Of a stretch of 64,000 bases of DNA, positions 1-45,596 are shown piece after piece; the first letter of the stretch is position 1; the number at the start of each line of letters is the position of its first letter. The position numbers and the translations under genes were made by a program. The DNA is taken from positions 376,168-440,167 of the forward strand of contig NZ_JBBMXV010000001.1 in NCBI RefSeq assembly GCF_037996645.1. Direction: 5' to 3'. The notes below the pieces were generated by a model that did no database searches, had not been told where the DNA came from, and saw only the letters and a program-made list of their open reading frames with translations. The DNA is from Halalkalicoccus tibetensis (GTDB lineage Archaea; Halobacteriota; Halobacteria; Halobacteriales; Halalkalicoccaceae).

Positions 1-1021
1 CCTCCCGCGAGATCGTGAGCGTCGGGTCGATCACGCGGCCGTACCACTCCTGGTAGGCGTCGGTGCGTTTCAGCCCGTCCATGTACTCGTTGAGCGCCTC
101 CTCGTAGGCCTCCTCGTCAGCGTGGGACTCCGTCCCACTGGATTCCGGGCCTTGCCCGGAGACGCCGAACGCCTCCTCGCGGGGCTGGCGGCCGATCTCA
201 TCGGCCAGCTCCTCCTCCTGCTGGGTGTCACGGATCATCCGCCGGTAGCCGAACAGCGCGGCCTTCCGGACCATGCCCGGGAACGGCGTGTGAAAGGGGA
301 TGTACGCGAAGTCCTCGGTGCGTGCGCGCCCCGCGACGCCCTCGAAGTCCTCGAGGGCCTCGCGCATGCGAGCGAGATACACCTGCACGCTCCGCTTGCC
401 GTCGACCGACGGGAACTGCTGGTTGGGCTTCAAAAAGTCCGTCTCGTCGGCGCTCCCGTAGCCCTGTTCGGTCGAGAGGCTCACCAGCTCGGGGTCCTCG
501 GAGATGAGCATCGCGACCGCGCCGGCGCCCTGGGTCGCCTCGCCGGGGTCGTTCCGCGCGTACAGCGCGGTGTCGGTCGCGATCACGAGCGCCGAGCGGC
601 CCCTGTTTCTCCCTGCTTTGATCCAGTTGTAGGCGTCGTCGATCGATTGGGTGCCCGCGACGCAGGCGAACTTCCGCTCGCCCTTGTTGGCGTGGCTGAA
701 CTTCCCGTCGTAGACTCCCTCCAGACAGCCCGCGATATACGTCGAGACGGGTTTCGAGTTGTCGAAGGAGCTCTCGGTCGCGACGTCGATCCGGCCGATG
801 TCCTCGGGTTCGAGGCCCTCGTGTTCCATCAGCCGGTGGGCGGCGTTCGCGCCCATCGTCACGATGTCCTCGTAGGTGTCGGGGAAGGAGCTCGCGTTCA
901 GCCCGAGGCCTTTCGTGTACTTCTCGGGGTCCTCGCCCTTCGCCGGCGCGAAGGTGTTGGGCAGGTCGAGCTTGAGCTTCCCGGTCCAGATCTCGATGGC
1001 GTCGATGCCGACCTCGGTCAT
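1..1021 (-). CDS. mvaS: Hydroxymethylglutaryl-CoA synthase, C-terminus cut by window edge
   Basis: Condenses acetoacetyl-CoA with acetyl-CoA to HMG-CoA, the entry to the mevalonate pathway that supplies archaeal isoprenoid lipids. The frame starts at the ATG read from 1021 and begins MTEVGIDAIEIW; about 340 codons are visible before the window ends, against roughly 445 in haloarchaeal homologues. The acyl-carrying cysteine is Cys120 in the motif FACVAGTQ, and the conserved catalytic-histidine region reads IPFHTPFPGMV near residue 245. A TATA-like element lies about 20 bases upstream of the start. Around residues 287-300 a Gly/Ser-rich stretch (GQGPESSGTES) breaks the family pattern and is encoded by two adjacent DNA hairpins (see separate entry). 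Identity is secure; the C-terminal part is not seen. Confidence 0.93.
   Translation of the reverse strand, partial: MTEVGIDAIEIWTGKLKLDLPNTFAPAKGEDPEKYTKGLGLNASSFPDTYEDIVTMGANAAHRLMEHEGLEPEDIGRIDVATESSFDNSKPVSTYIAGCLEGVYDGKFSHANKGERKFACVAGTQSIDDAYNWIKAGRNRGRSALVIATDTALYARNDPGEATQGAGAVAMLISEDPELVSLSTEQGYGSADETDFLKPNQQFPSVDGKRSVQVYLARMREALEDFEGVAGRARTEDFAYIPFHTPFPGMVRKAALFGYRRMIRDTQQEEELADEIGRQPREEAFGVSGQGPESSGTESHADEEAYEEALNEYMDGLKRTDAYQEWYGRVIDPTLTISRE
122..160. repeat. Two adjacent three-base-loop hairpins inside the HMG-CoA synthase frame
   Basis: Bases 122-128 (gtgggac) pair with 132-138 (gtcccac) around a tcc loop, and bases 144-150 (tccgggc) pair with 154-160 (gcccgga) around a ctt loop. 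Both stems are 7 bp and perfect. They lie within the coding frame and encode the unusual SGQGPESSGTESH stretch. One 7-bp hairpin is expected by chance several times in a GC-rich window; two perfect ones 5 bases apart are less so. Confidence 0.6.
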
Positions 1022-1151
1022 ACGTCCTAACTATCGTGGCAGTTATATGGGCCTGTCGACTATCGGTTCGACGATCGACGTACGGCAGGGTCGGAGCGGG
1101 CGCTGGTCGAAGCAGTGTCTTCAGCAAGCCTCGCTTCGGACCCGAGCGCGC

Positions 1152-1748
1152 TTAGCTCTCCTCGTCGGCGTCTTCCTCCTCGATGACTTCGGGGTCGCGC
1201 ATCGCGTTCTGGAGGCTGTCGAGGCCGTTGACCCACTCCGCGACGAAGCCGTACTCGATCTCCTCGCCGATGCTCACGTCGAGGTTCTCGCCGTCGACGA
1301 TCCGGGTGCCGGCCTGCGCACAGTAGCCGAGCGCCGCGTCGAAGTCCTCCTCGGCCTCCGCGTCGGCCGCCGTGCGGACGTATTCCTCGATCGAGGCCTC
1401 CTCGCTGGCCCCGCTCAGGATGTACTCCTCGGCGGCGGCGAACACGCAGACCAAGCTCGTCTGGACGCCGTCGATCAGGAAGGCGGTCTCCTCGTCCTCG
1501 ACCTCGACGTCCGAGAGGACGATCTCGCGGACGTCCGCGAGCTCCTCGATGGCCTCCTCCTCCTCCTCCAGTTCGCCCTCCTCGTGGGCGTTGACGATCT
1601 TCGCGACGGCGATGGCGGTGTCGTCCTGCAGGTTGAGCAGCAGGCGCGCCGAGTCCTCGTCCTCGGGGTCGATCTCCTCGGCTTTCAGTCGGTCGATCCA
1701 GTTCTGCCACCGTTCCTCGGAGTAGAACGCTTCGGGCGGGGTGCTCAT
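1152..1748 (-). CDS. DUF2150 family protein
   Basis: A 198-residue, very acidic soluble protein of the haloarchaeal DUF2150 family; no enzymatic role is established. It begins MSTPPEAFYSEERW and shows the family's Trp-rich N-terminus (WQNWIDRL), a long Glu-rich central helix (residues about 55-75) and a C-terminal segment EYGFVAEWVNGLDSLQNAM. There is no signal peptide or membrane segment. It sits between the HMG-CoA synthase and TatD genes on the same strand but has its own upstream spacer, so co-transcription is uncertain. The family call is from recognition of overall sequence, not from a catalytic motif. Confidence 0.8.
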   Translation of the reverse strand: MSTPPEAFYSEERWQNWIDRLKAEEIDPEDEDSARLLLNLQDDTAIAVAKIVNAHEEGELEEEEEAIEELADVREIVLSDVEVEDEETAFLIDGVQTSLVCVFAAAEEYILSGASEEASIEEYVRTAADAEAEEDFDAALGYCAQAGTRIVDGENLDVSIGEEIEYGFVAEWVNGLDSLQNAMRDPEVIEEEDADEES

Positions 1749-1784
1749 ACCGAAGGGTGTCGACCCGCGTTCAAAGCCCTTTCT

Positions 1785-2615
1785 CTACTCGTCTAAAGTG
1801 TCGATCGTATCGATCCCGTAGACCCGCTCGGGCGTCTCGACGTGTGCCGTCCGGATCGCGTCGTCGTAGCCCTCCTCGCGCAGCCAGCCTACCCGTCTCG
1901 GCACCGTCTTGGGACCCATCACCGCCCCCGGCCGGTCGGGATCGTCGATGAAGTCCGTCTCCATCATGAACGGCTCGCCCGATTCGGCGGCACGGCGCAG
2001 CTCGTCCTTATCGCAGATGACGCTCGGCGTCGGGCCCGCGAGCCGGCCGCCCGCGTAGTGTTTTACCACCCGCTGGGCCGGTAACCCCCGCTCCCCGGCC
2101 CACTCGGCGATCTCCGTGAGGTCCTCGCTGCCCTCCGTATGCAGCTGGACCGCACAGCCGTGCTCCGCGCCGAGCGCCAGCGCGTGTCGTAGGGTCTCGT
2201 TCGAGGCCTTCCATACTTCGTTGCTCACCTCGTAATGGGGTCGCCCGGACTTGAGCGCCAGCGCCCGCCCGTCGAGGTACTCTCTCGCGAGGTCGAGCCC
2301 GGCGCGCATGATCTCCCCGGCTCCCTCGGGATCATGGCCCGCATCGACGAGCTGGGAGATCAGCCCCGGATGCACCCCGAGGACGGGCCACGCGCGCCCG
2401 TCGAGGACGTCGTTCGCCTCGGCGACCGCCCCGAGGGTGGTCTCGAAGACGTGGCGGAAGTCCGCGCCCGACTCGGGGAGTTCCCCGAGATGCCAGGAGG
2501 GTTTGTTGACGACGAGCAGATGGGTGCCCCCCGAGCGCGCGAAGTCCTTGACGGCCTCGATCCCCCGACCGTGGTCGGGGTCGAGATGCAGGTGGTCATC
2601 GAGGATCGGCTCCAT
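1785..2615 (-). CDS. TatD family metal-dependent hydrolase
   Basis: A 276-residue TIM-barrel metallohydrolase related to TatD deoxyribonucleases and archaeal metal-dependent hydrolases. The N-terminal HxH metal pair is seen in DDHLHLDP (residues about 6-13). Further likely ligands are the His in QLHTEG near residue 160 and the His in VVKHYAGG near residue 185, with the closing acidic residue in METDFIDDP. The true substrate in haloarchaea is not known. It starts at ATG 2615 and lies 30 bases downstream of the NYN gene on the same strand, so the two may be co-transcribed. Confidence 0.85.
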   Translation of the reverse strand: MEPILDDHLHLDPDHGRGIEAVKDFARSGGTHLLVVNKPSWHLGELPESGADFRHVFETTLGAVAEANDVLDGRAWPVLGVHPGLISQLVDAGHDPEGAGEIMRAGLDLAREYLDGRALALKSGRPHYEVSNEVWKASNETLRHALALGAEHGCAVQLHTEGSEDLTEIAEWAGERGLPAQRVVKHYAGGRLAGPTPSVICDKDELRRAAESGEPFMMETDFIDDPDRPGAVMGPKTVPRRVGWLREEGYDDAIRTAHVETPERVYGIDTIDTLDE

Positions 2616-2645
2616 ACCGGGGCTTCTCGTGCGGGTCCGAAAGGG

Positions 2646-3125
2646 CTACGTATCGCCGTCGAGCAGCACCGCCTCCTGGGCGGCGTTGCGAAGCGCGTCG
2701 GAGCGGCCGTAGGTACCGGGTGCGACCGCCACCGTGTGGATCCCCCGTTTGGCGGCCTTCTCGAGGACCGGCTTGAAGTCGGTGTCCCGCGAGACGACCA
2801 TCAGGGTGTCGATCGCGTCGGTGTAGACGAGCTCGGTGGCGTCGATCGCGAGCTTCACGTCGACGTCGCCGCTGGTGATGACCACCTCGTACCCGCGGGC
2901 TTCCGCGGCCTGGATCAGCCCCGGCGTGGCGTGTTCGTCGAGATACAGCCGGGTCGCGACGAGCGTTCCCGAGTCGAGGCCCACGGCCCGCACGTCGTCG
3001 AGATCCACGTCGAACTCGTCGCGCAGCACGTTCGGCCCGTCGACGAGCAGCCCGACCCGCCGGCGGTTCGATCCCCCGGGCCGAACCCGATCCAGTAGCT
3101 CCCGCAGACCCGCTCGAACTCCCAT
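2646..3125 (-). CDS. NYN-domain (PIN-like) protein of the TIGR00288/LabA type
   Basis: A 159-residue protein with a PIN-like NYN nuclease fold. The first acidic residue is in VGLLVDGPNVL (about residues 24-34), a second acidic patch is VITSGDVDVKLAIDA (about 86-100) and the third is VVSRDTDFKPVL (about 111-122); these place the usual Asp residues of a metal-dependent RNase active site. The basic N-terminus (GLRELLDRVRPGGSNRRR) could contact nucleic acid. No toxin or antitoxin partner is adjacent, so a housekeeping RNA-processing role is more likely than a toxin. The substrate is unknown. Confidence 0.82.
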   Translation of the reverse strand: MGVRAGLRELLDRVRPGGSNRRRVGLLVDGPNVLRDEFDVDLDDVRAVGLDSGTLVATRLYLDEHATPGLIQAAEARGYEVVITSGDVDVKLAIDATELVYTDAIDTLMVVSRDTDFKPVLEKAAKRGIHTVAVAPGTYGRSDALRNAAQEAVLLDGDT

Positions 3126-3217
3126 GCCATCGTCACTCGGGGGTCGGATAAAAACCGTGTCGGATTCCCGGGGCGATCGACGGAAACCCTTAGACCCTCC
3201 CGCGCGACAGCCGAGGT

Positions 3218-4303
3218 ATGTCAGATCGCAGGCCGCCGCTGTACGCCACCCATGACGGCGCTGACGCGAAATTCACCCCCTTCGGGGGCTGGGCGATGCC
3301 CGTCGAGTTCGACTCCATCCGAACCGAACACGAGGCCGTCCGCGAATCGGCCGGGATCTTCGACGTCTCCCACATGGGCGAGATCGAGCTCTCGGGCCCC
3401 GACGCCGCCGCGCTGCTCCAGGGGCTGACCACCAACGACGTCGAATCCCTCTCCGTAGGGCGCGCACAGTATTCGGCGATCACCGACGAGGAGGGCACCA
3501 TCCTCGACGACACAGTCGTTTATCGGCTCGACGAGGAGGAGTTCCTCTTCATCCCCAACGCGGGTCACGACGAACGGATGGAGGAGCGATGGGAGAGCCA
3601 CCGCGAGGAGTGGGACCTCGACTGCGAAGTCGAGAACGCCACCGAGGACTGGGCGATGTTCGCGATCCAGGGGCCCGAGGCGGAGGACCTCGTCGCCGAG
3701 GCGGCGGGCGAGGAGCTGCGCGACCTCGGGCGATTCGCGATCACGGAGGCCAGGATCGCGGGCGCGGACTGCCTGCTGGCCCGGACGGGCTACACCGGCG
3801 AGGACGGCTTCGAGGCGCTCGTGCCGTGGGACGCGGCCGAGGAGGTCTGGAAGGAGTTCGACTGCCAGCCCTGCGGGCTCGGCGCCCGGGACACCCTCCG
3901 CATCGAGGCGGGCTTCCTGCTCTCGGGCCAGGACTTCGACCCCGAGGAGAACCCCCGGACCCCCTACGAGGCCCGGATCGGCTTCGCGGTCGACCTCGAC
4001 ACCGAGTTCGTCGGCCGGGACGCCCTCGCGCGCGTCAACGAGGACGGGCCCGAGGAGCTGTTCATCGGCCTGCGCCTCCTCGAACGCGGGGTCCCCCGCA
4101 ACGGCTACGAGATCCGCGCGGACGACGGGGCGATCGGCGAGGTCACCAGCGGGACGATGAGCCCCACCCTCGGGGAGCCGATCGGATTGGGCTACGTGCC
4201 GACGGAGTACGCCGAGGAGGGTCGCGAGGTCGCGGTACGGATCCGCGGGTCGGACAAAAGGGCAAGGATTGAAGCCCCCGGCTTCCTCGGTGATAGGCAA
4301 TGA
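3218..4303 (+). CDS. gcvT: Glycine cleavage system aminomethyltransferase (T protein)
   Basis: Transfers the methylene carbon from the aminomethyl-lipoyl arm of GcvH to a tetrahydrofolate-type carrier, releasing ammonia. The 361-residue length is normal. Motifs include [25 protein letters not shown] with its family Asp, and the substrate-loop segment [13 protein letters not shown]. The C-terminal barrel segment [20 protein letters not shown] is intact. Its last codons overlap the gcvH start (ATGA), so the two are translationally coupled. gcvPA and gcvPB follow about 90 bases after gcvH, giving a complete P/T/H set apart from the L protein (lipoamide dehydrogenase), which is not in the window. 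Confidence 0.96.
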
Positions 4304-4671
4304 GCTTCGACGTACCCGAGGAGCTGTACTACCTGGAGTCCCACGAGTGGATCGACCCCGACAGCGGGAGGGTCGGAATCACCGAGTTCGCACAGGACGA
4401 GCTCGGCGACGTGGTGTTCGTCGAACTTCCCGAGGAGGGCGAGGAGCTCTCTCAGGAGGGGGAGTTCGGCGTCGTCGAGTCCATCAAGGCCGTCTCGGAC
4501 CTCTACTCGCCGGCCGACGGCGAGGTCAGGGCGGTCAACGAGGCGCTGTTCGACCGGCCCGAACTGCTCAACGAGGACCCCTTCGGCGAGGGCTGGATGC
4601 TCGAACTCGACGTCGCGGGCGAGCTCGACGGGCTGCTCTCGGCGGAGGAGTACCGCGAGCAGATCGAGTAG
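4300..4671 (+). CDS. gcvH: Glycine cleavage system H protein (lipoyl carrier)
   Basis: A 123-residue lipoyl-domain protein that shuttles the aminomethyl group between P and T proteins. The lipoylation site is Lys63 in [14 protein letters not shown], the canonical ESxKA hairpin. The opening [12 protein letters not shown] and the [19 protein letters not shown] segment are diagnostic. It overlaps the gcvT stop by 4 bases. A 90-base spacer separates it from gcvPA; no separate promoter is obvious there, so a four-gene operon is likely. Confidence 0.97.
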
Positions 4672-4761
4672 CCGCGAGCGGCCGGAACCCCGCTCTTCAT
4701 GTACTGGCGGGCGTAAGAGCCGCCATGAACCGGCCGACAGCTACCACGCTTTTCGTGACAG

Positions 4762-6099
4762 ATGACGACACAACACAGCCGCGGTAGCCCCTTCGCACCG
4801 CACACCGACGAGGAGACCGCGGCGATGCTCGCGGCGGTCGGCGCCGAGAGCGTCGAGGAGCTGTTCGACATCCCCGACCCGGTGCGCTTCGACGGCGAGT
4901 TCGGGATCGAGCCCCGGGGCGAGCGCGAGCTCCGCGCCGAGACCCGGGCGCTCCTTGGGCGCAACGACGACCTGACGGAGTTCCTCGGGCGCGGCCACTA
5001 CGACCACTACGTCCCGTCGCTCGTCGACCACCTCGCCGACCGGTCGGAGTTCCTCACCAGCTACACCCAGTATCAGCCCGAGATCACCCAGGGCTTCCTC
5101 CAGGTGCTCTTCGAGTACCAGTCGATGCTCGTCGAGCTGACTGGTTTAGAAGTCGCGAACTGCTCGATGTACGACGCCGCGACGGCGTTGGGCGAAGCCG
5201 CGACGCTCGCTGATCGAGTGAGGGAGACGAGCGGGTCGACCGTTCTGGTCCCCGAGCTGATGCGTGAAGAGCGCCGTTCGGTCCTCGAGAACTACACCGA
5301 AGGGGCGGGGCTGAGCGTCGAGACGTACCCGCACGACGACGCGAACGCGGACCTCGACGCGCTCACGGAGATCGCGAGCGAGGAGACGGTGATGATCTAC
5401 GCCGAGAGCCCGACGGTCCGCGGGGCCATCGAAGAACGGCTGGGAGAGATCGGCGACCTGACCGACGCGAACGACGCGCTGTTCGTTCTCGGCTCCGACC
5501 CGGTCGCGCTGTCGGTGCTCGAGGAGCCCGCGGCGGTCGGCGCGGACGTCGTGATCGGCGACGCCGCGACGCTGGGACTGGGAACGAGCTACGGAATGGG
5601 ACTGGGTCTGTTCGCGACCCGCGAGGAGTTCGTCCGGCAGGTGCCCGGGCGGCTGGTCGGCGCGAGCACCGACTCGGGGGGCGAGCGTACCTACACCCTC
5701 ACCCTCCAGACCCGCGAACAGCACATCCGCCGCGAGCGCGCGACCTCGAACATCTGCACGAACCAGGCGTGGGTCGCGCTTCGGACGGCGATCCACGCTG
5801 CGTGGCTCGGACCTAGCGGATTGGTGGATCTCGCCACCGAGTGTCTCGAGGCGCCCGCCGAGCTCGCCGAACGCCTCGACGACCTCACGGGGGTGAAGGC
5901 GCCGGTCCACGACCGCCACCAGTTCCGGGAGTTCGTCGCCCGAACCGACCAGCCCGCGGAAGCCGTCCGCGAGACGTTAGAGGGGAAGGGCTTCGCGGTC
6001 CACGCGATCGACGACCACCTGGTACAGGTCTGTGTGACCGAAACGAACACGGAGAGGACGGACGCGCTGGTCACCGCGTTCAGGGAGGCCGCCAAATGA
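4762..6099 (+). CDS. gcvPA: Glycine dehydrogenase (decarboxylating) subunit 1
   Basis: The N-terminal half of a split P protein, 445 residues, which with GcvPB decarboxylates glycine using PLP and loads the aminomethyl group on GcvH. Recognisable segments are [16 protein letters not shown], the [21 protein letters not shown] block and [18 protein letters not shown] itself is held mainly by subunit 2, so the absence of a Schiff-base lysine motif here is expected. The stop overlaps the gcvPB ATG (ATGA at 6096), so the subunits are made stoichiometrically. Confidence 0.95.
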
Positions 6100-7523
6100 C
6101 GCTCGAATACACGCAAGCACGCTGGAACACGGACGAGGACGGCTACGAAGCGCTGCTCTCGGAGAAGAACGAGGAGACCGTCGAGACCGACGACGTCCCG
6201 CTTCCCGACGACCTGAAGCGCGACGAGCTGACGCTGCCCGAACTCTCCGAGCCCGAGCTCGCGCGCCACTACACCCGACTCAGCCAGATGAACTACGGGG
6301 TCGAGTCGGGACCCTACCCGCTGGGGAGCTGTACGATGAAGTACAACCCGAAGTTCACCGAGGACGTCGCGGCGCTGCCCTCCGCGGGGGTGCACCCGGA
6401 TCGCTCGCCCGAGAGCATCCAGGGAACCCTCGAGCTGCTCCACCGTCTCGAGGACCAGCTCGCACGGATCGGCGGGATGGACGCGGTGACCCTCCAGCCG
6501 CCCGCGGGCGCGGCCGGCGAGTTCGTCGGCATTCTGATCGCGAAGGCCTACCACGAGTCCCGAAACGACGAGCGAAGCGAGGTCGTGATCCCCGACGCGG
6601 CCCACGGGACGAACTTCGCGAGCGCCGCGATGGGGGGCTACGATGTCGTCGAGCTGCCTTCGGGCGAGGACGGTCGGGTCGACCTCGACGCCCTCGAAGC
6701 GGCACTCTCCGAGGAGACCGCGGCGCTGATGCTGACCAACCCCAACACGCTGGGGCTGTTCGAGCGCGACATCGAGGAGATCGCGGGGATGGTCCACGAC
6801 GTCGGCGGGCTGCTCTACTACGACGGCGCGAACCTGAACGCCCTCCTCGGGAGAGCGCGCCCCGGCGACATGGGCTTCGACGTCATGCACTACAACGTCC
6901 ACAAGACGTTCGCGACACCCCACGGCGGCGGCGGACCCGGTGCCGGACCCGTCGGCGTCAGCGAGGAGCTCGCGGAGTTCCTGCCGAACCCGCACGTCCG
7001 TGAGGGGGACGGCGGTTACGAGCTGTACGAGCCCGAGAGCTCGATCGGCAAGGTGCACGGCTTCATGGGCAACTGGCTCGTGCTGATCAAGGCCTACGCC
7101 TACATCGCCCGGCTCGGCGATTCCGGGCTGTCGGACGCCAGCGCGAAGGCGGTGCTCAACGCGAACTACCTGGCGAGCCAGGTCGAGTACGACACCCCCT
7201 ATGAGCCGTTCCACCACGAGTTCGTCGCGAGCGCGGGCGAGCAGGACGCCGCCGACGTCGCAAAGCGGATGCTCGACTACGGCGTCCACCCGCCGACGAC
7301 CAAGTGGCCCGAGCTCGTGAGCGAGGCGCTGATGACCGAGCCCACCGAGGTCGAGAACCGGAGCTCGCTCGATCGGCTCGCACAAGCGTTCAACGCCGTC
7401 GCGGGCGAGGACCGCGAGGCGATCGAGGCGGCGCCCGAACGGACGGCCGCGGGACGGATCGACCAGACCGAAGCGGCACGGAACCTCCGGCTCTCGTGGC
7501 GGGCACTCGACGAGGATTCATAA
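6096..7523 (+). CDS. gcvPB: Glycine dehydrogenase (decarboxylating) subunit 2
   Basis: The 475-residue PLP-binding half of the split P protein. The start is the ATG at 6096 that overlaps the gcvPA stop; the open frame extends further upstream only as a shadow of gcvPA. The Schiff-base lysine lies in [21 protein letters not shown], the glycine-rich phosphate-binding loop follows directly, and [11 protein letters not shown] near residue 75 is the family N-terminal signature. This completes the gcvT-H-PA-PB run. The gene ends 64 bases before nikR. Confidence 0.96.
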
Positions 7524-7587
7524 CCGAGCCGGGATAATCCGGCCGGTTTTAGCAACTCTTACTATCTGCCCACCCTTCGATTAATAC

Positions 7588-8016
7588 ATGACAGTCGTCA
7601 GCGTCTCGATGCCCGAGGAACTGCTGAACCGGATCGACGAGTTCGCGGACGATCACGGCTACACCGGCCGCAGCGAGGTCGTCCGGGAGGCCTCGCGCAA
7701 CCTGCTGGGGGAGTTCCAGGACCGCGAGCTCGAGGACCACGAGCTGATGGGCGTGATCACCGTGCTGTTCGACTACGAGACCACGAGCGTCGAGGAACGG
7801 ATGATGCGCCTGCGCCACGAACACGAGTCGCTGGTCACCTCGAACTTCCACAGCCACGTCGGGGACCGCTACTGCATGGAGCTGTTCATCCTCGAGGGGA
7901 ACCTCGAGGGGATCTCGGAGTTCGTCGGGAAGGTCCGTGCGACGGGCGACATCCTCACCGTCGACTACTCGGTGATCCCGGTCGACGACTTCGCCGCGAC
8001 GCTCTCGCAGTCGTAG
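7588..8016 (+). CDS. nikR: NikR-type nickel-responsive ribbon-helix-helix regulator
   Basis: A 142-residue CopG/NikR transcription factor. The N-terminal ribbon-helix-helix ([33 protein letters not shown], about residues 3-36) binds DNA; the C-terminal ACT-like domain binds nickel. The four nickel ligands of the E. coli protein are all conserved in spacing: His77, His88, His90 and Cys96 ([12 protein letters not shown]). It is therefore expected to sense Ni(II) and repress nickel uptake. No nickel transporter or urease gene is in the window, so the target must lie elsewhere. Confidence 0.93.
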
Positions 8017-13001: not shown

Positions 13002-13076
13002 GGGTCGGTGATCTAGTCCGGTTATGATACCTCCTTCACACGGAGGAAGTCGGCGGTTCAAATCCGCCCCGACCCA
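13002..13076 (+). tRNA. tRNA-Val (CAC)
   Basis: A 75-base cloverleaf: acceptor GGGTCGG (13002-13008) pairs with CCGACCC (13069-13075), discriminator A at 13076, anticodon stem CCTCC/GGAGG enclosing the loop TTCACAC with anticodon CAC at 13037-13039 (reads GUG, valine), and T arm GGCGG-TTCAAAT-CCGCC. CCA is not encoded. There is no intron. The 3' part of this gene is repeated twice downstream (see repeat entries). Confidence 0.95.
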
Positions 13077-13082
13077 CTGAGC

Positions 13083-13151
13083 GTTCTCCGGCACCTCCGC
13101 GAACACCGCGAGCGACAGCGAGCGTGTGTGAGCAACCCCGTGCCGGAGAAC
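13083..13151. repeat. 12-bp inverted repeat beside tRNA-Val
   Basis: Bases 13083-13094 (gttctccggcac) are the exact reverse complement of 13140-13151 (gtgccggagaac), separated by 45 bases. It lies between the tRNA and the first downstream repeat and could be a terminal or regulatory structure of the island, or a terminator-like fold. Confidence 0.6.
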
Positions 13152-13193
13152 CGAAGCGTCGGGCGGTTTGAACCAGGGAGTGTAGCGAGCGAA

Positions 13194-13226
13194 GCGAGCG
13201 GAACGACCGTGGTTCAAATCCGCCCC
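13194..13226. repeat. Left direct repeat of the tRNA-Val island (att-like)
   Basis: A 33-base unit ending in the tRNA-Val T-arm/acceptor sequence GGTTCAAATCCGCCCC. It matches 13840-13872 at 30 of 33 positions (offset 646). It is not a functional tRNA, since no anticodon arm precedes it. Confidence 0.75.
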
Positions 13227-13297
13227 AATCTAATTGCTCTGGAAGTTACAAATTATATATGGAAGTGCTTTCAGTATAGTAGTGACTGTCTAGCAGT

Positions 13298-13801
13298 ATG
13301 GATCATTACTTCGAGTCAGAAGACGATCTATCAAGGCTAAGACTAAAGATTGGTCATTTAGAGAAAGAATGGTCAGAAATGTGCGATAGTTGGGATGATC
13401 GGGGAAATATACGATCAATAGAGGATGATCTGATTCCACTTATTATCTCTACTCATGCAGCGATAGAGGATCTCACAGCGCATCTAATCATCACATTTGT
13501 AATAAAGAGGAAGTTTTCCGAAGGTGCCTTCGAATATGTCTATTCAGGAATGAGCCAATCACATAGAGAACAGTTGCTAGCGAATTGTGGGATCCTTTCA
13601 AACGAAACGCGAGGTAAGCTTAGCGATTTCAAAGGACTGAGGAACGACGTGGCTCATGGGACGTTTATGAAATTGGATTGGTACCGAGATAATATACAAG
13701 AGAAGATGGATGCAGCATTTGAGGTTCTAAATGCATTTGAAGAAGCGTTCACCAATTCCGACCTAATTGACGATATCTACGAAAGGAATAAGGTGCTCTG
13801 A
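13298..13801 (+). CDS. HEPN-like protein in AT-rich island
   Basis: A 167-residue soluble, mostly helical protein starting MDHYFESEDDLSRL. Composition is strikingly unlike its neighbours: AT-rich codons, with many Ile, Lys, Asn and Phe residues. The segment KGLRNDVAHGTF carries Arg115-Asn116-x3-His120, the Rx4H signature of HEPN ribonucleases, preceded by the helix THAAIEDLTAHLIITFVI as in HEPN or DUF4145-like domains. It could be an RNase toxin or an antiphage effector, but the motif alone is not proof and no antitoxin-like partner is present. An AT-rich promoter (aattatatatgg) lies about 45 bases upstream. Transfer is likely from composition and flanking repeats. Confidence 0.7.
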   Translation: MDHYFESEDDLSRLRLKIGHLEKEWSEMCDSWDDRGNIRSIEDDLIPLIISTHAAIEDLTAHLIITFVIKRKFSEGAFEYVYSGMSQSHREQLLANCGILSNETRGKLSDFKGLRNDVAHGTFMKLDWYRDNIQEKMDAAFEVLNAFEEAFTNSDLIDDIYERNKVL

Positions 13802-13839
13802 ACTGATTTGTCAGCCTCTTGGGTCTGAGAACAACTATT

Positions 13840-13872
13840 GCGAACGGAACGACCGAGGTTTAAATCCGCCCC
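13840..13872. repeat. Right direct repeat of the tRNA-Val island (att-like)
   Basis: Partner of 13194-13226. It contains GGTTTAAATCCGCCCC at 13857-13872, one change from the tRNA. Normal GC-rich sequence and the moxR gene resume immediately after it, which marks the island boundary. Confidence 0.75.
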
Positions 13873-13915
13873 GACCGGGAGACCTATTCCCACGGCCTGC
13901 GATCAGCGAAACGAA

Positions 13916-14866
13916 ATGGACATCGCCGACGCCACCGCCGAGTGCGAGCGCGTCCTCGAGGCCGTCGAGGGGGCGGTGATCGCCGATCGAGCCGTATTGG
14001 AAACCGTTCTGCTCGGCACCCTCGCGCGCGGGCACGTACTGCTCGAGGACGTCCCGGGGACGGGAAAGACCCTCACCGCGCGGAGCCTCGCTCGGGCGCT
14101 GGGGCTCTCCTTTTCGCGGATCCAGTTCACGCCGGACCTCCTCCCGTCGGACATCACGGGCACCCACGTCTTCGACGAGCGCGATCGGGGCTTCGAGTTC
14201 AACGAGGGGCCCATCTTCGCGAACGTCGTGCTGGCCGACGAGATCAACCGCGCGCCGCCGAAGACCCAGAGCGCGCTGCTGGAGGCGATGGAGGAGCGCC
14301 AGGTGACCGCCGACGGCGAGACCCGCGCGCTGCCCGAGCCCTTCCTCGTGATCGCGACCCAGAACCCCGTCGAGCAGGACGGCACCTTCCCGCTGCCCGA
14401 GGCCCAGGTCGACCGCTTCCTCGCGAAGACCTCGCTCGGCTACCCCGACGCCGCGGGCGAGCGCGAGCTGCTGGCCCGGCGGGCCGACCGCACCCGCCGC
14501 AGTCCCACCATCGAACCCGTCCTCTCGACCGACCGGGTCGAGGCCCTCCAGGGGGTTCCCGAGACCGTCCGGGTCGAGGAGGACCTGCTGACCTACATGG
14601 TCGAACTCTGTCGGGCGACCCGCGAGGACCGTCGGGTGTCGGTCGGGGTCTCGCCGCGGGGCACCCAGCGGCTGTTCGAGGCCGCGCGCGCCCGGGCGGT
14701 CCTCGCGGGCCGCGAGTACGTCACCCCCGACGCGGTGAAGACGGTCGCCCGGCCCGTCTTGGCCCACCGGCTCGTACTGACGCCGGACGCCCGGGTCGAC
14801 GACGTGAGCAAGGGAGCCGTGATCGAGCGGGTCCTCGAGTCGGTCCCCGTCCCGACGGTCGATTAG
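13916..14866 (+). CDS. MoxR family AAA+ ATPase
   Basis: A 316-residue AAA+ ATPase of the MoxR group, chaperone-like ATPases that work with DUF58/VWA proteins. The Walker A is DVPGTGKTLTARSLA (about residues 43-57), Walker B VVLADEINRAPPKTQSALLEAMEE with the MoxR-typical ADEINRA, sensor 1 LVIATQNPVEQDGTFPLPEAQ, and an Arg-containing sensor 2 region near VSPRGTQRLF. Start is the ATG at 13916 (MDIADATAECERV); the frame upstream runs into the island repeat. It is convergent with, and overlaps by 4 bases, the DUF7519-DUF58-DUF4129 operon, its expected functional partners. Confidence 0.93.
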   Translation: MDIADATAECERVLEAVEGAVIADRAVLETVLLGTLARGHVLLEDVPGTGKTLTARSLARALGLSFSRIQFTPDLLPSDITGTHVFDERDRGFEFNEGPIFANVVLADEINRAPPKTQSALLEAMEERQVTADGETRALPEPFLVIATQNPVEQDGTFPLPEAQVDRFLAKTSLGYPDAAGERELLARRADRTRRSPTIEPVLSTDRVEALQGVPETVRVEEDLLTYMVELCRATREDRRVSVGVSPRGTQRLFEAARARAVLAGREYVTPDAVKTVARPVLAHRLVLTPDARVDDVSKGAVIERVLESVPVPTVD

Positions 14867-42766: not shown

Positions 42767-43795
42767 TTAATTGTGTTGCGCCGGATGGACCACGTCGAGC
42801 ACGTCGTCGGTTCCCGCGCGCCTGACGACCGCCCGGATCGGGTCACGTACTCCCGAGAGGTTGTCCGAGTCGCCGTCGAGGACGAGCAGGCGTGCCTCGC
42901 GGCCCTCCTCTATCGTGCCGGCGTCGAGCCCCATCAGCTCGGCGCCCGCGCGGGTCGCCATCTCGAGGATCGTCGGGGCCTCGAGACCCGTGAGCTTCGC
43001 GGCGAACTCCATCTCGCGGAACATCGAGGGGCTGTTGAGCATCACGTTGTCGGTGCCCAGCGCGACGGTCGTTCGCTCCGCTAACTCCTCGATGGGCGGC
43101 AGGCCGACGTCGGTCACGAGGTTCGCTCGCGGGCAGACGACGACCGGAATTTCCTCGCGTTCGACCCGGTCCAGATGGTCGGGACCGGCGTTGACCATGT
43201 GGACCAGATAGTCGGGTTCGAGGTCGAGCGCGGGCACGATGTCGTCGGTGCGGTTCTCGCCGGCGTGGATCCCGAAGGGCTTGCCGGCCTCGCGGGCCGC
43301 CTCGCGCTCCTCCGTGAAATCGGCGTCCGCGGCGCCGCTGGCGCCGTAGCCGTCGCCCGCCTCCAGCGCCGCGAGCTCGTCGCGCCCCATCGCGAAGGCG
43401 TCGACCGGGAGCCCCTCTGCCGCTTCCCTGAGGACCGAGACGCCGTCGGCCCCGCCCTCGCGGAAGTCCAGAAAGCCCGTCACGCCGCCCGAGCGCATGA
43501 ACCGGATCGACTTCCTGATAGCTGCGACCATCTCCTCGCGGTCGCTCTCGCGCAGCAAGCGGTGTTTCAGGCCGTCGGGCGGGGCGACGAGTTCTTCGAG
43601 GGTCAGTCCTCGTCCGGCCTCCTTGGCGATCGAGTCCCCGATGTGGGTGTGGGCGTTGACGAACGCGGGCGCGATGATCCGGTCGCTAGTAGTGGAAGCC
43701 TCTTCGACCGCTTCGATCCGCCCGTCCTCACAGACGACCCGGCCCTCGACGGGTTCGTACCCGGGACCCCGGAGGACGGTCCCCTCGACGATCAT
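42767..43795 (-). CDS. Amidohydrolase family protein (cytosine/chlorohydrolase-like)
   Basis: A 342-residue metal-dependent amidohydrolase. The metal ligands are His pair in PAFVNAHTHIGDS, His in FGIHAGENR, His in LVHMVNAG and Asp in ALGTDNVMLN. That layout is the subtype III form seen in cytosine deaminase, atrazine-type and guanine deaminase-like enzymes, suggesting one catalytic metal and a deamination or dehalogenation reaction. The actual substrate is not recognisable. Its start (43795) directly borders the repeat-bounded island. Confidence 0.87.
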   Translation of the reverse strand: MIVEGTVLRGPGYEPVEGRVVCEDGRIEAVEEASTTSDRIIAPAFVNAHTHIGDSIAKEAGRGLTLEELVAPPDGLKHRLLRESDREEMVAAIRKSIRFMRSGGVTGFLDFREGGADGVSVLREAAEGLPVDAFAMGRDELAALEAGDGYGASGAADADFTEEREAAREAGKPFGIHAGENRTDDIVPALDLEPDYLVHMVNAGPDHLDRVEREEIPVVVCPRANLVTDVGLPPIEELAERTTVALGTDNVMLNSPSMFREMEFAAKLTGLEAPTILEMATRAGAELMGLDAGTIEEGREARLLVLDGDSDNLSGVRDPIRAVVRRAGTDDVLDVVHPAQHN

Positions 43796-43848
43796 ACCCG
43801 ATCCTGACGGCCGCGGGATTTGAACCCCGGGATTCTCAGCGCGCGCCG

Positions 43849-43889
43849 GCGCCGAACCGATCCAGCGTGGTGTGCAGCCCGGGCCGGAC
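43849..43889. repeat. Left copy of a perfect 41-bp direct repeat (duplicate of the HD gene 3' end)
   Basis: Identical base for base to 44377-44417 (offset 528). In the right copy these bases are the last codons of the HD-domain gene. The left copy could continue that gene's coding sense to a different end (DRFGAGAR then a stop), which suggests it is the original 3' end displaced from its gene. Confidence 0.85.
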
Positions 43890-44376
43890 AGGTATTAAAA
43901 CTGTTTACTGGATTACCTACTCAGCCGTCGGTCGTCGTAACTCTAAATCCCCGGTTACGGCCTCGTATACGATGCTAATTACGGCTGCAATGGCGTATGA
44001 TATTATTTCAACTGGGATCCTTACACCTGTGTTGAGAACGATCTCGGAGTAGATCTCGGTCGGTATTTGATATCCGATTACATAATATGGTCCGAACACT
44101 GGATACAACAACAGCCCGGGGAGTGTATCAGAAACCGGGTAATAGAACGCCCATACTAGCGGTGAAATGGCCAGCATAATAAATAAAAAATCACTTATTT
44201 ATTAAATACATATTTATAACTATTTTTATTCATATCTCTACTATGACCTCTGTCTAAAAAAACTGTTCTGATGCTTCGAGATCCGTACGGTGGCTGGTTA
44301 CATGCATAACATATTACACCTGGTTTGTCGAATAGGCTGGAGACTATAGCCAGAAATACAATGCTATTGATTGCCC
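43890..44376. mobile_element. Small AT-rich island between the 41-bp repeats
   Basis: A 487-base segment much more AT-rich than its surroundings, inserted precisely between two copies of the HD gene's 3' end. It carries one small membrane-protein frame on the minus strand and an AT-rich upstream region with an 8-bp dyad (aataaata at 44178-44185, tatttatt at 44196-44203). No integrase, transposase or terminal inverted repeat is visible. Target-end duplication without gene loss resembles tyrosine-recombinase integration at a gene 3' end. Confidence 0.7.
43917..44177 (-). CDS. Small AT-rich membrane protein in the 41-bp-repeat island
   Basis: An 86-residue frame starting MLAISPLVWAFYYPVS, with two hydrophobic helices (about residues 2-35 with several Pro/Tyr, and 53-72 VRIPVEIISYAIAAVISIVYEAV) and a charged C-terminus LELRRPTAE. 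Codon use is AT-rich and unlike the flanking genes. An AT-rich promoter-like region (atttataac, near 44213) lies just upstream. It was not recognised as a member of any family. Its location as sole gene of the island suggests it is cargo. Confidence 0.55.
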   Translation of the reverse strand: MLAISPLVWAFYYPVSDTLPGLLLYPVFGPYYVIGYQIPTEIYSEIVLNTGVRIPVEIISYAIAAVISIVYEAVTGDLELRRPTAE

Positions 44377-45596
44377 GCGCCGAACCGATCCAGCGTGGTG
44401 TGCAGCCCGGGCCGGACGTCGCTGATCAGCGTGCCGTCGGTGTCGAGCCCGAGGACGGCCTCCGTCGCGTGGCCGACCCGTTCGGCGGCGTCGGCGGGCG
44501 CGTAGACCCCGAGGCGCCACTGGTTGAGCTGTGAGTGTTGGAGGGTCCGCACCAGCGGCGACTGCTCGTCGAGTTGCCGGGTCTCGCCGCCGACCACGAC
44601 GCGAGTACTGGATTCCGTCATCTTCGGGTACGCCGGCACGTCGAGGATCACCGCGTCGTCCTCGACGCCGGCCCGGTCGGCGATCGTCTCCTCGCACTCG
44701 ACGGTCGTTTCGTGGTCCATGTCGAGCAAGTCGCCCGGGACGTCGCGGTACTCCGCCCAGACGGCTCGCTTGAACAGGTCGCGGTGGGCGAACCGCCGGG
44801 CGATCCCCTCGGTGCTCTCGCTGGTGCGCAGCGCCACGAGCAGGTCGTGGTCGTCCATCCGACGGAGCTCCTCGGGATCGATCCCCGACGCGATCAGCCG
44901 CTCGGCACCCCGGCGGAGCATCGACTTGCTGATCCGGGCGACGTGGTGGCTGTACACCGTCGGGTTCATCAGCGCGCGGGCGACCAGCAGGCTCTCGGCC
45001 GATTGGACGTTGCCCTCGCCCAGGACGAGCTCGCCGTCGACGAAGCGCAGCTCCCGGACCAGCCGGCCGTGGTCGATGGTGCCGTAGGGAACGCCGGTGT
45101 GGTGGGCGTCGCGCACTAAATAGTCCATCCGGTCGACGTCGAGCTCGCCCGAGACGAGCCCGCCGTATTGGCCCTCGCCGTGGATGAGGCCGGCCACCCG
45201 GTCGGGGTCGAGGTCGTGGTCCTCGAGGACCGACTCGACGGGCCCGCCCTCGATGACGTCCTCGACGTCCTCGTGATATTTTCCGGTGTGGCGCTCGATC
45301 ACGTCCTCGACGTTGTGGCTGTAGGGGCCGTGGCCGACGTCGTGGAGGATCGCCGCGGCCCGCACCCGTTCGGCGGCCCGGCCCTCGATCCCCATGTGCG
45401 AGAGCGCCTGGCGGGCGAGGTGGTAGACCCCCAAGGAATGCTCGAAACGGGTGTGGTTCGCGGAGGGATAGACCAGCGAGACGGTGCCCAGCTGCTTGAT
45501 GTGGCGGAGGCGCTGGACCTCGGGGGTGTCCAGCAGCGCGCGGGCAACGCCCCCGACCTCGATATGGTCGTGGACGCTGTCCTTGATCGTCTTCAT
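44364..45596 (-). CDS. HD-domain phosphohydrolase (dNTPase-like)
   Basis: A 410-residue HD-superfamily protein. The metal site is TRFEHSLGVYHLA (His) and AAILHDVGHGPYSHNVE (HD pair), with a third His/Asp region RMDYLVRDAHHTGVPYGTIDHGRL. The N-terminus KDSVHDHIEVGGVARALLDTPEVQRLRHIKQLG is typical of archaeal SAMHD1/dGTPase-like proteins, so it likely hydrolyses dNTPs or a nucleotide. The last 14 codons coincide with the right 41-bp repeat; the protein now ends GAGNQ, whereas the left copy would end GAGAR. The C-terminus was therefore altered by the island's arrival. Confidence 0.9.
   Translation of the reverse strand: MKTIKDSVHDHIEVGGVARALLDTPEVQRLRHIKQLGTVSLVYPSANHTRFEHSLGVYHLARQALSHMGIEGRAAERVRAAAILHDVGHGPYSHNVEDVIERHTGKYHEDVEDVIEGGPVESVLEDHDLDPDRVAGLIHGEGQYGGLVSGELDVDRMDYLVRDAHHTGVPYGTIDHGRLVRELRFVDGELVLGEGNVQSAESLLVARALMNPTVYSHHVARISKSMLRRGAERLIASGIDPEELRRMDDHDLLVALRTSESTEGIARRFAHRDLFKRAVWAEYRDVPGDLLDMDHETTVECEETIADRAGVEDDAVILDVPAYPKMTESSTRVVVGGETRQLDEQSPLVRTLQHSQLNQWRLGVYAPADAAERVGHATEAVLGLDTDGTLISDVRPGLHTTLDRFGAGNQ
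44377..44417. repeat. Right copy of the perfect 41-bp direct repeat
   Basis: Partner of 43849-43889. It forms the intact 3' coding end of the HD gene, so the gene stays functional after insertion. Confidence 0.85.

Follow-up and report, generated by a model that had tools for sequence, protein, structure and literature searches.

A 487-base AT-rich insert at the replaced end of an HD-domain gene of Halalkalicoccus tibetensis has the appearance of a trace left by a very small mobile element

The window analysed here (the whole stretch of 64,000 nucleotides from H. tibetensis) contains an HD-domain gene and, downstream of it, the amidohydrolase gene that is its usual neighbour, as judged in part from gene order in relatives. 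The two are separated in this strain by an AT-rich insert that lies between two copies of a direct repeat. The features of the locus, in the direction in which the two genes are read, are the following:

44364–45596, minus strand: HD-domain gene (HD and HD_assoc_2; PF01966, E 3.5e-9; PF19276, E 8e-90), the target of the insertion, its C-terminus now ...FGAGNQ-stop
44377–44417, no strand assigned: upstream copy of the direct repeat, within the HD coding sequence; reaches 44373 if one mismatch is allowed
44364–44372, minus strand: new gene end AAT CAA TAG (N, Q, stop), contributed by the insert; the ancestral end was GCG CGC TGA (A, R, stop)
43890–44376, no strand assigned: AT-rich insert of 487 bases, 40.7% GC, lacking terminal inverted repeats
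43917–44177, minus strand: ORF of 86 amino acids, hydrophobic (GRAVY 0.73), without lysine, net charge -5, with a likely C-terminal membrane helix at residues 56–75
43849–43889, no strand assigned: downstream copy of the direct repeat, continuing into the ancestral HD gene end GAGAR-stop
43836–43847, minus strand: ancestral HD gene end, GGC GCG CGC TGA, left stranded downstream of the unit
43805–43827, minus strand: sequence resembling a tRNA T-arm, GGGTTCAAATCCCGCGGCCGTCA, between the HD and amidohydrolase genes
42767–43795, minus strand: amidohydrolase gene

The two copies of the repeat are identical at all 41 positions and their starts are 528 bases apart. When stretched to 45 bases (43845–43889 and 44373–44417), they agree at 44 positions, with one mismatch. 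The number of 41-base repeats expected by chance within the window is about 7e-14. The low GC content of the insert is to be compared with 68.1% for the window, and a GC scan of the window found only two segments below 52%, namely this insert and positions 13101–13950. Over 740 kb of the same contig, the HD-gene repeat was the sole exact repeat of at least 24 bases, at a spacing of 100–8000, around a segment of less than 50% GC. For terminal inverted repeats, the best match within the insert was 7 of 9 bases and lay away from the termini, which argues against an ordinary transposon. The initial annotation had described a 41-bp repeat, 528 bases apart, around a 487-base AT-rich segment, and its coordinates proved exact.

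The downstream repeat copy runs on into GGCGCGCGCTGA, ending in GAR and a stop, and the upstream copy into GGCAATCAATAG, ending in GNQ and a stop. When the unit was excised in silico and the two flanks were joined, the HD gene ended in FGAGAR-stop, an end resembling those of the congeners, and its spacing to the amidohydrolase gene was similar to theirs. Hence, the unit replaced the last residues of the gene together with its stop codon. The HD gene stays whole, since the end supplied by the element turned GAGAR-stop into GAGNQ-stop. The earlier description of the repeat as terminal coding sequence of an HD gene that remains intact with an altered C-terminus was thus confirmed, GAGAR-stop being found stranded downstream.

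No integrase or recombinase was found inside the 528-base unit, whose sole ORF, of 86 amino acids, has no family match. Compared with shuffled sequences, the ORF stood out for its length (p 0.03) and for an acidity uncommon in the local DNA (net charge, p 0.02). Haloarchaeal proteins tend toward an acidic and lysine-poor composition. The excess length, the acidity and the lack of lysine together suggest that the ORF probably encodes a real membrane protein, in line with the one small membrane-protein frame noted originally. AlphaFold, run on the single sequence, gave a poor model (mean pLDDT 61) in which the C-terminal membrane helix alone was confident. Homologues were sought in Pfam, PHROGs, NCBIfam and PADLOC, by tblastn in phages and plasmids, by pattern scans of viral and genome contigs, and by a search of 392 Halobacteriales genomes; none was found. 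The best matches (E 0.02–0.1) all fell inside evidently unrelated proteins, and by these sequence searches the ORF appears to be an orphan.

The DNA of the insert behaved likewise. Against the 392 Halobacteriales genomes it gave just chance matches of 25–37 bases, and against phages and plasmids AT-rich chance matches only. Neither a 21-base core of the repeat nor a degenerate one of 28 bases occurred in the viral contigs searched; an 18-base string across the junction matched three viral contigs, a result judged to be chance from the GC content of the contigs alone. No second copy of the unit was present elsewhere in its own genome. None of the other genomes searched had the insert, or a repeat-bracketed element at the HD site. 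The suggestion in the initial annotation that the cargo be sought at other sites therefore yielded no second copy or relative in the genomes searched.

Relatives of the HD gene were present in 56 of 59 genomes. The unit was missing in all six of the other Halalkalicoccus species, and five of these had the plain empty site that had been anticipated, with the HD gene running straight to its own end, followed by 35–40 bases and then the amidohydrolase gene. At these sites (H. paucihalophilus and four congeners) the HD protein ended in FGAGGN, FGVGAE, FGAGGTE, FGSGAE and FGTDAKRE, each before a stop. The sixth congener, a MAG, carried a different, unrelated single-gene insertion of ~380 bases in the gap between the HD and amidohydrolase genes, without a long repeat. 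This latter insertion has a lipoprotein-like ORF of 106 amino acids and lies directly before the T-arm-like sequence. Given the empty sites, the simplest account is a gain of the unit in the window's own lineage. Both states of the base at the single repeat mismatch occur among the congeners, so that the mismatch cannot say which copy of the repeat is older. Neither an arrangement with diverged repeats in all relatives nor a larger, decayed element lacking clean junctions was encountered.

The gap between the HD and amidohydrolase genes measured at least 200 bases in 10 of 63 syntenic haloarchaeal loci, and two of these enlarged gaps, both from Natrinema, carried a membrane-protein-like frame of 57 or 69 amino acids. 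None of the ten enlarged gaps contained a repeat of the HD tail comparable to that of the window, and among 80 haloarchaeal loci no comparable case of an insertion with a repeat of the gene tail was seen at the HD gene end. That the gap accepts other insertions, and is thus permissive, weakens the claim that a specific recombinase chose the site. Moreover, the end of the HD gene is not strongly conserved between species at the DNA level, which makes it an unusual attachment site. The T-arm-like sequence in the gap was considered as an attachment site and set aside, because the direct repeat excludes it. Its core, TTCAAATCC, is retained here by each of the seven Halalkalicoccus species, with varying DNA around it, and no tRNA of the genome matches the T-arm-like sequence within 3 mismatches.

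Stretches totalling about 1.54 Mb of the 3.6 Mb genome were examined, and other repeat-bracketed islands were sought in 1.34 Mb of these (contigs C1, 1–740000; C2, 1–400000; C4, 1–200000). Islands were defined as AT-rich segments of 250–2500 bases (n = 39). The left border of each was aligned to its right border, and borders of different islands served as control. The top control score was 16, after exclusion of nine of 2000 pairs that scored at least 155 and were probably repeated sequences. Flanking repeats above the control were found for 3 of the 39 islands, all at gene 3' ends, a survey result that is suggestive only, since the island definition and the cut-off were fixed after the first two cases were known. 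The HD unit had the score of 42.5 (45 bp, 1 mismatch). It was followed by an island at tRNA-Val within the window (score 25.5; 33 bp with 3 mismatches, 13194–13226 and 13840–13872) and by one at tRNA-Gly (C1:172171–173741; score 19.5; 27 bp with 4 mismatches).

Both tRNA-end islands hold essentially one gene each and no integrase. The gene of the tRNA-Val unit (13298–13801) encodes a HEPN-like protein of 167 amino acids (PF18735, E 1e-5, narrowly missing the family cut-off), and that of the tRNA-Gly unit a protein of 328 amino acids without an assigned family. The 33-base repeats of the tRNA-Val unit contain the 3' end of tRNA-Val. One genome (G006) appears empty at this site. Relatives of the HEPN-like gene (58–71% identity) occur in three distant haloarchaeal genomes, none of them within 1.5 kb of a tRNA. 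The genome also gave seven tyrosine-recombinase matches above the cut-off. At tRNA-Glu, an integrase gene overlaps the tRNA, and a copy of the tRNA 3' end lies 18.8 kb away (C1:568655–587574). This stretch is a probable 18.8-kb element integrated in tRNA-Glu, which would mean that a site-specific route is in use in this genome.

Much smaller units were seen behind haloarchaeal tRNA genes. They consist of a hairpin, TTGAACCAGGGAG-N4-34-GACCGTGGTTCAAA, running into a copy of the tRNA's own 3' end; the example in the window (13078–13226) lies behind tRNA-Val (13002–13077). The exact motif occurred at 24 sites in 22 of the 392 Halobacteriales genomes, with 0 for the reversed control. Twenty-three of the 24 sites were 40–114 bases after a tRNA gene, and 18 ended in an exact copy of 12–22 bases of the tRNA 3' end. 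The units measure 94–169 bases, and their left arm tends to include tRNA-specific bases. At tRNA-Val their number varied across the seven Halalkalicoccus species (none in one, one or two in the others), suggesting that such units come and go over short time spans. No specific description of haloarchaeal tRNA-end repeat or hairpin units was found in the literature searched.

The 528-base unit looks like something left behind by a very small mobile element. Integration into the 3' end of a protein gene, whether what is left is a relic or a complete cassette, is in our judgement rather likely, and we favour with even confidence the version in which the present 487 bases are a relic. A mobile DNA circle would recombine with roughly the last 41–45 bases of the HD gene by way of an integrase-type, site-specific, Campbell-like route, as for archaeal proviruses and plasmids. 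The incoming DNA would bring a substitute gene end (Asn-Gln-stop), so that the HD gene would not be broken, and the displaced original end (Ala-Arg-stop) would come to lie 528 bases away, beside the amidohydrolase gene. The larger element would then shrink, its integrase being lost and both junctions kept along with one small membrane-protein gene. Excision may still occur if a matching recombinase acts in trans.

Besides the empty sites and the repeat, the base composition of the insert, foreign to the locus, was counted as evidence for integration, and the two companion islands at tRNA ends are its best, if suggestive, support. Counting against it are the missing integrase, the failure to find the insert or a repeat-bracketed element at this site in any other genome searched, and the absence of the repeat cores from viral contigs. 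The initial annotation had proposed site-specific integration by a very small element without integrase, a reading that is partly supported here. The 3'-end target, the stop codon supplied by the element and the repeat of 41–45 bases match published archaeal cases; the recombinase enters the scheme by inference, as one lost through internal deletion or supplied in trans. The lack of an integrase in the unit was upheld, and for this reason it is not classed as an autonomous integrated element.

If complete, the 528 bases would form a cassette of one gene plus a copy of the attachment sequence, mobilised in trans by an integrase whose gene lies elsewhere. The clean junctions on both sides, the intact and protein-like ORF and the seven tyrosine-recombinase matches all agree with such a cassette, to which the two AT-rich, integrase-free one-gene units at tRNA ends also lend suggestive support. 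However, the attachment sequences of those units differ from that of the HD unit, the relatives of the HEPN-like gene lie away from tRNA genes, and nothing searched contained a second copy or relative of the HD unit; we consider a complete cassette unlikely. Still more doubtful is the wider proposal that haloarchaea hold a loose class of integrase-less units, about 0.1–1.5 kb long and containing one gene or none, for which recombinases acting in trans would allow docking at tRNA and protein-gene 3' ends. Equally doubtful is a place for the HD unit in such a class as its protein-gene version, with the tRNA-Val HEPN-like, tRNA-Gly and hairpin units as the tRNA version.

The repeat may instead be filled-in target sequence, left when a foreign fragment was caught at a break with long overhangs or when a transposase made an unusually long target duplication. 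A plain 41-base target duplication would leave an identical picture, the repeat being what any long target duplication should give, and with the sequence of a single strain neither such a duplication nor capture during break repair can be separated from integration. The insert has no recognisable mobile-element gene, and the gap takes insertions without repeats, some of which contain a small ORF of membrane-protein or lipoprotein-like type. Target duplications of transposons are usually far shorter than 41 bases, though, and terminal inverted repeats are absent here. Luck would be needed for the gene end to be replaced in frame, and in the 1.34 Mb surveyed the only like events were the two at tRNA ends. 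This origin seems unlikely to us. Local duplication of the gene end in tandem, with subsequent drift between the copies and no foreign DNA, is very improbable. Short-spacer duplications are known in haloarchaea (in Haloarcula japonica, for example, 146 bases at a spacing of 179), but the two copies here are 41/41 identical, the intervening DNA is unlike any local sequence and some 27 percentage points lower in GC, and species with the empty site have just ~40 bases at this place.

If the unit is complete, it would be among the smallest integrated elements described in archaea, moving one gene while leaving the host gene unbroken, and haloarchaea would thus be able to gain genes by a cassette-like route. 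As a relic, it would be a clean record of haloarchaeal integration into a protein-gene end, with the gene end precisely replaced.

Among known systems, integron gene cassettes offer a resemblance only: they too have one short gene per unit and, should the HD unit prove a complete cassette, an enzyme acting in trans, but the HD unit has neither a recognised integron integrase nor an attC-like site, and its target is the end of a protein gene. Like MITEs, it is small and AT-rich and would rely on enzymes in trans; unlike them, it is single copy, lacks terminal inverted repeats and has a repeat far beyond usual target duplications. With the archaeal proviruses and plasmids that integrate into tRNA genes by a tyrosine recombinase it shares a gene 3' end as target and a repeat length within the range of crenarchaeal attachment repeats (29–69 bp, median 45; PMC6563490), although those elements use a tRNA target and carry an integrase, whereas the HD unit sits in a protein gene without one. 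The pattern at the gene end is that reported for NitEve-E2 of Nitrososphaera evergladensis, whose DNA took the place of eight bases, stop codon included, and brought an alternative stop (PMC6563490). Both have a protein-gene 3' end as target, a direct repeat derived from that target, a frame restored by a new stop and an empty site in relatives. Elements of that class are much larger and have recognisable genes, and the repeat of NitEve-E2 is 13 bp, as against 487 bases, no integrase and a repeat of 41–45 bp here. Read as an integration, the HD unit is a small variant of already known archaeal integrations at gene 3' ends.
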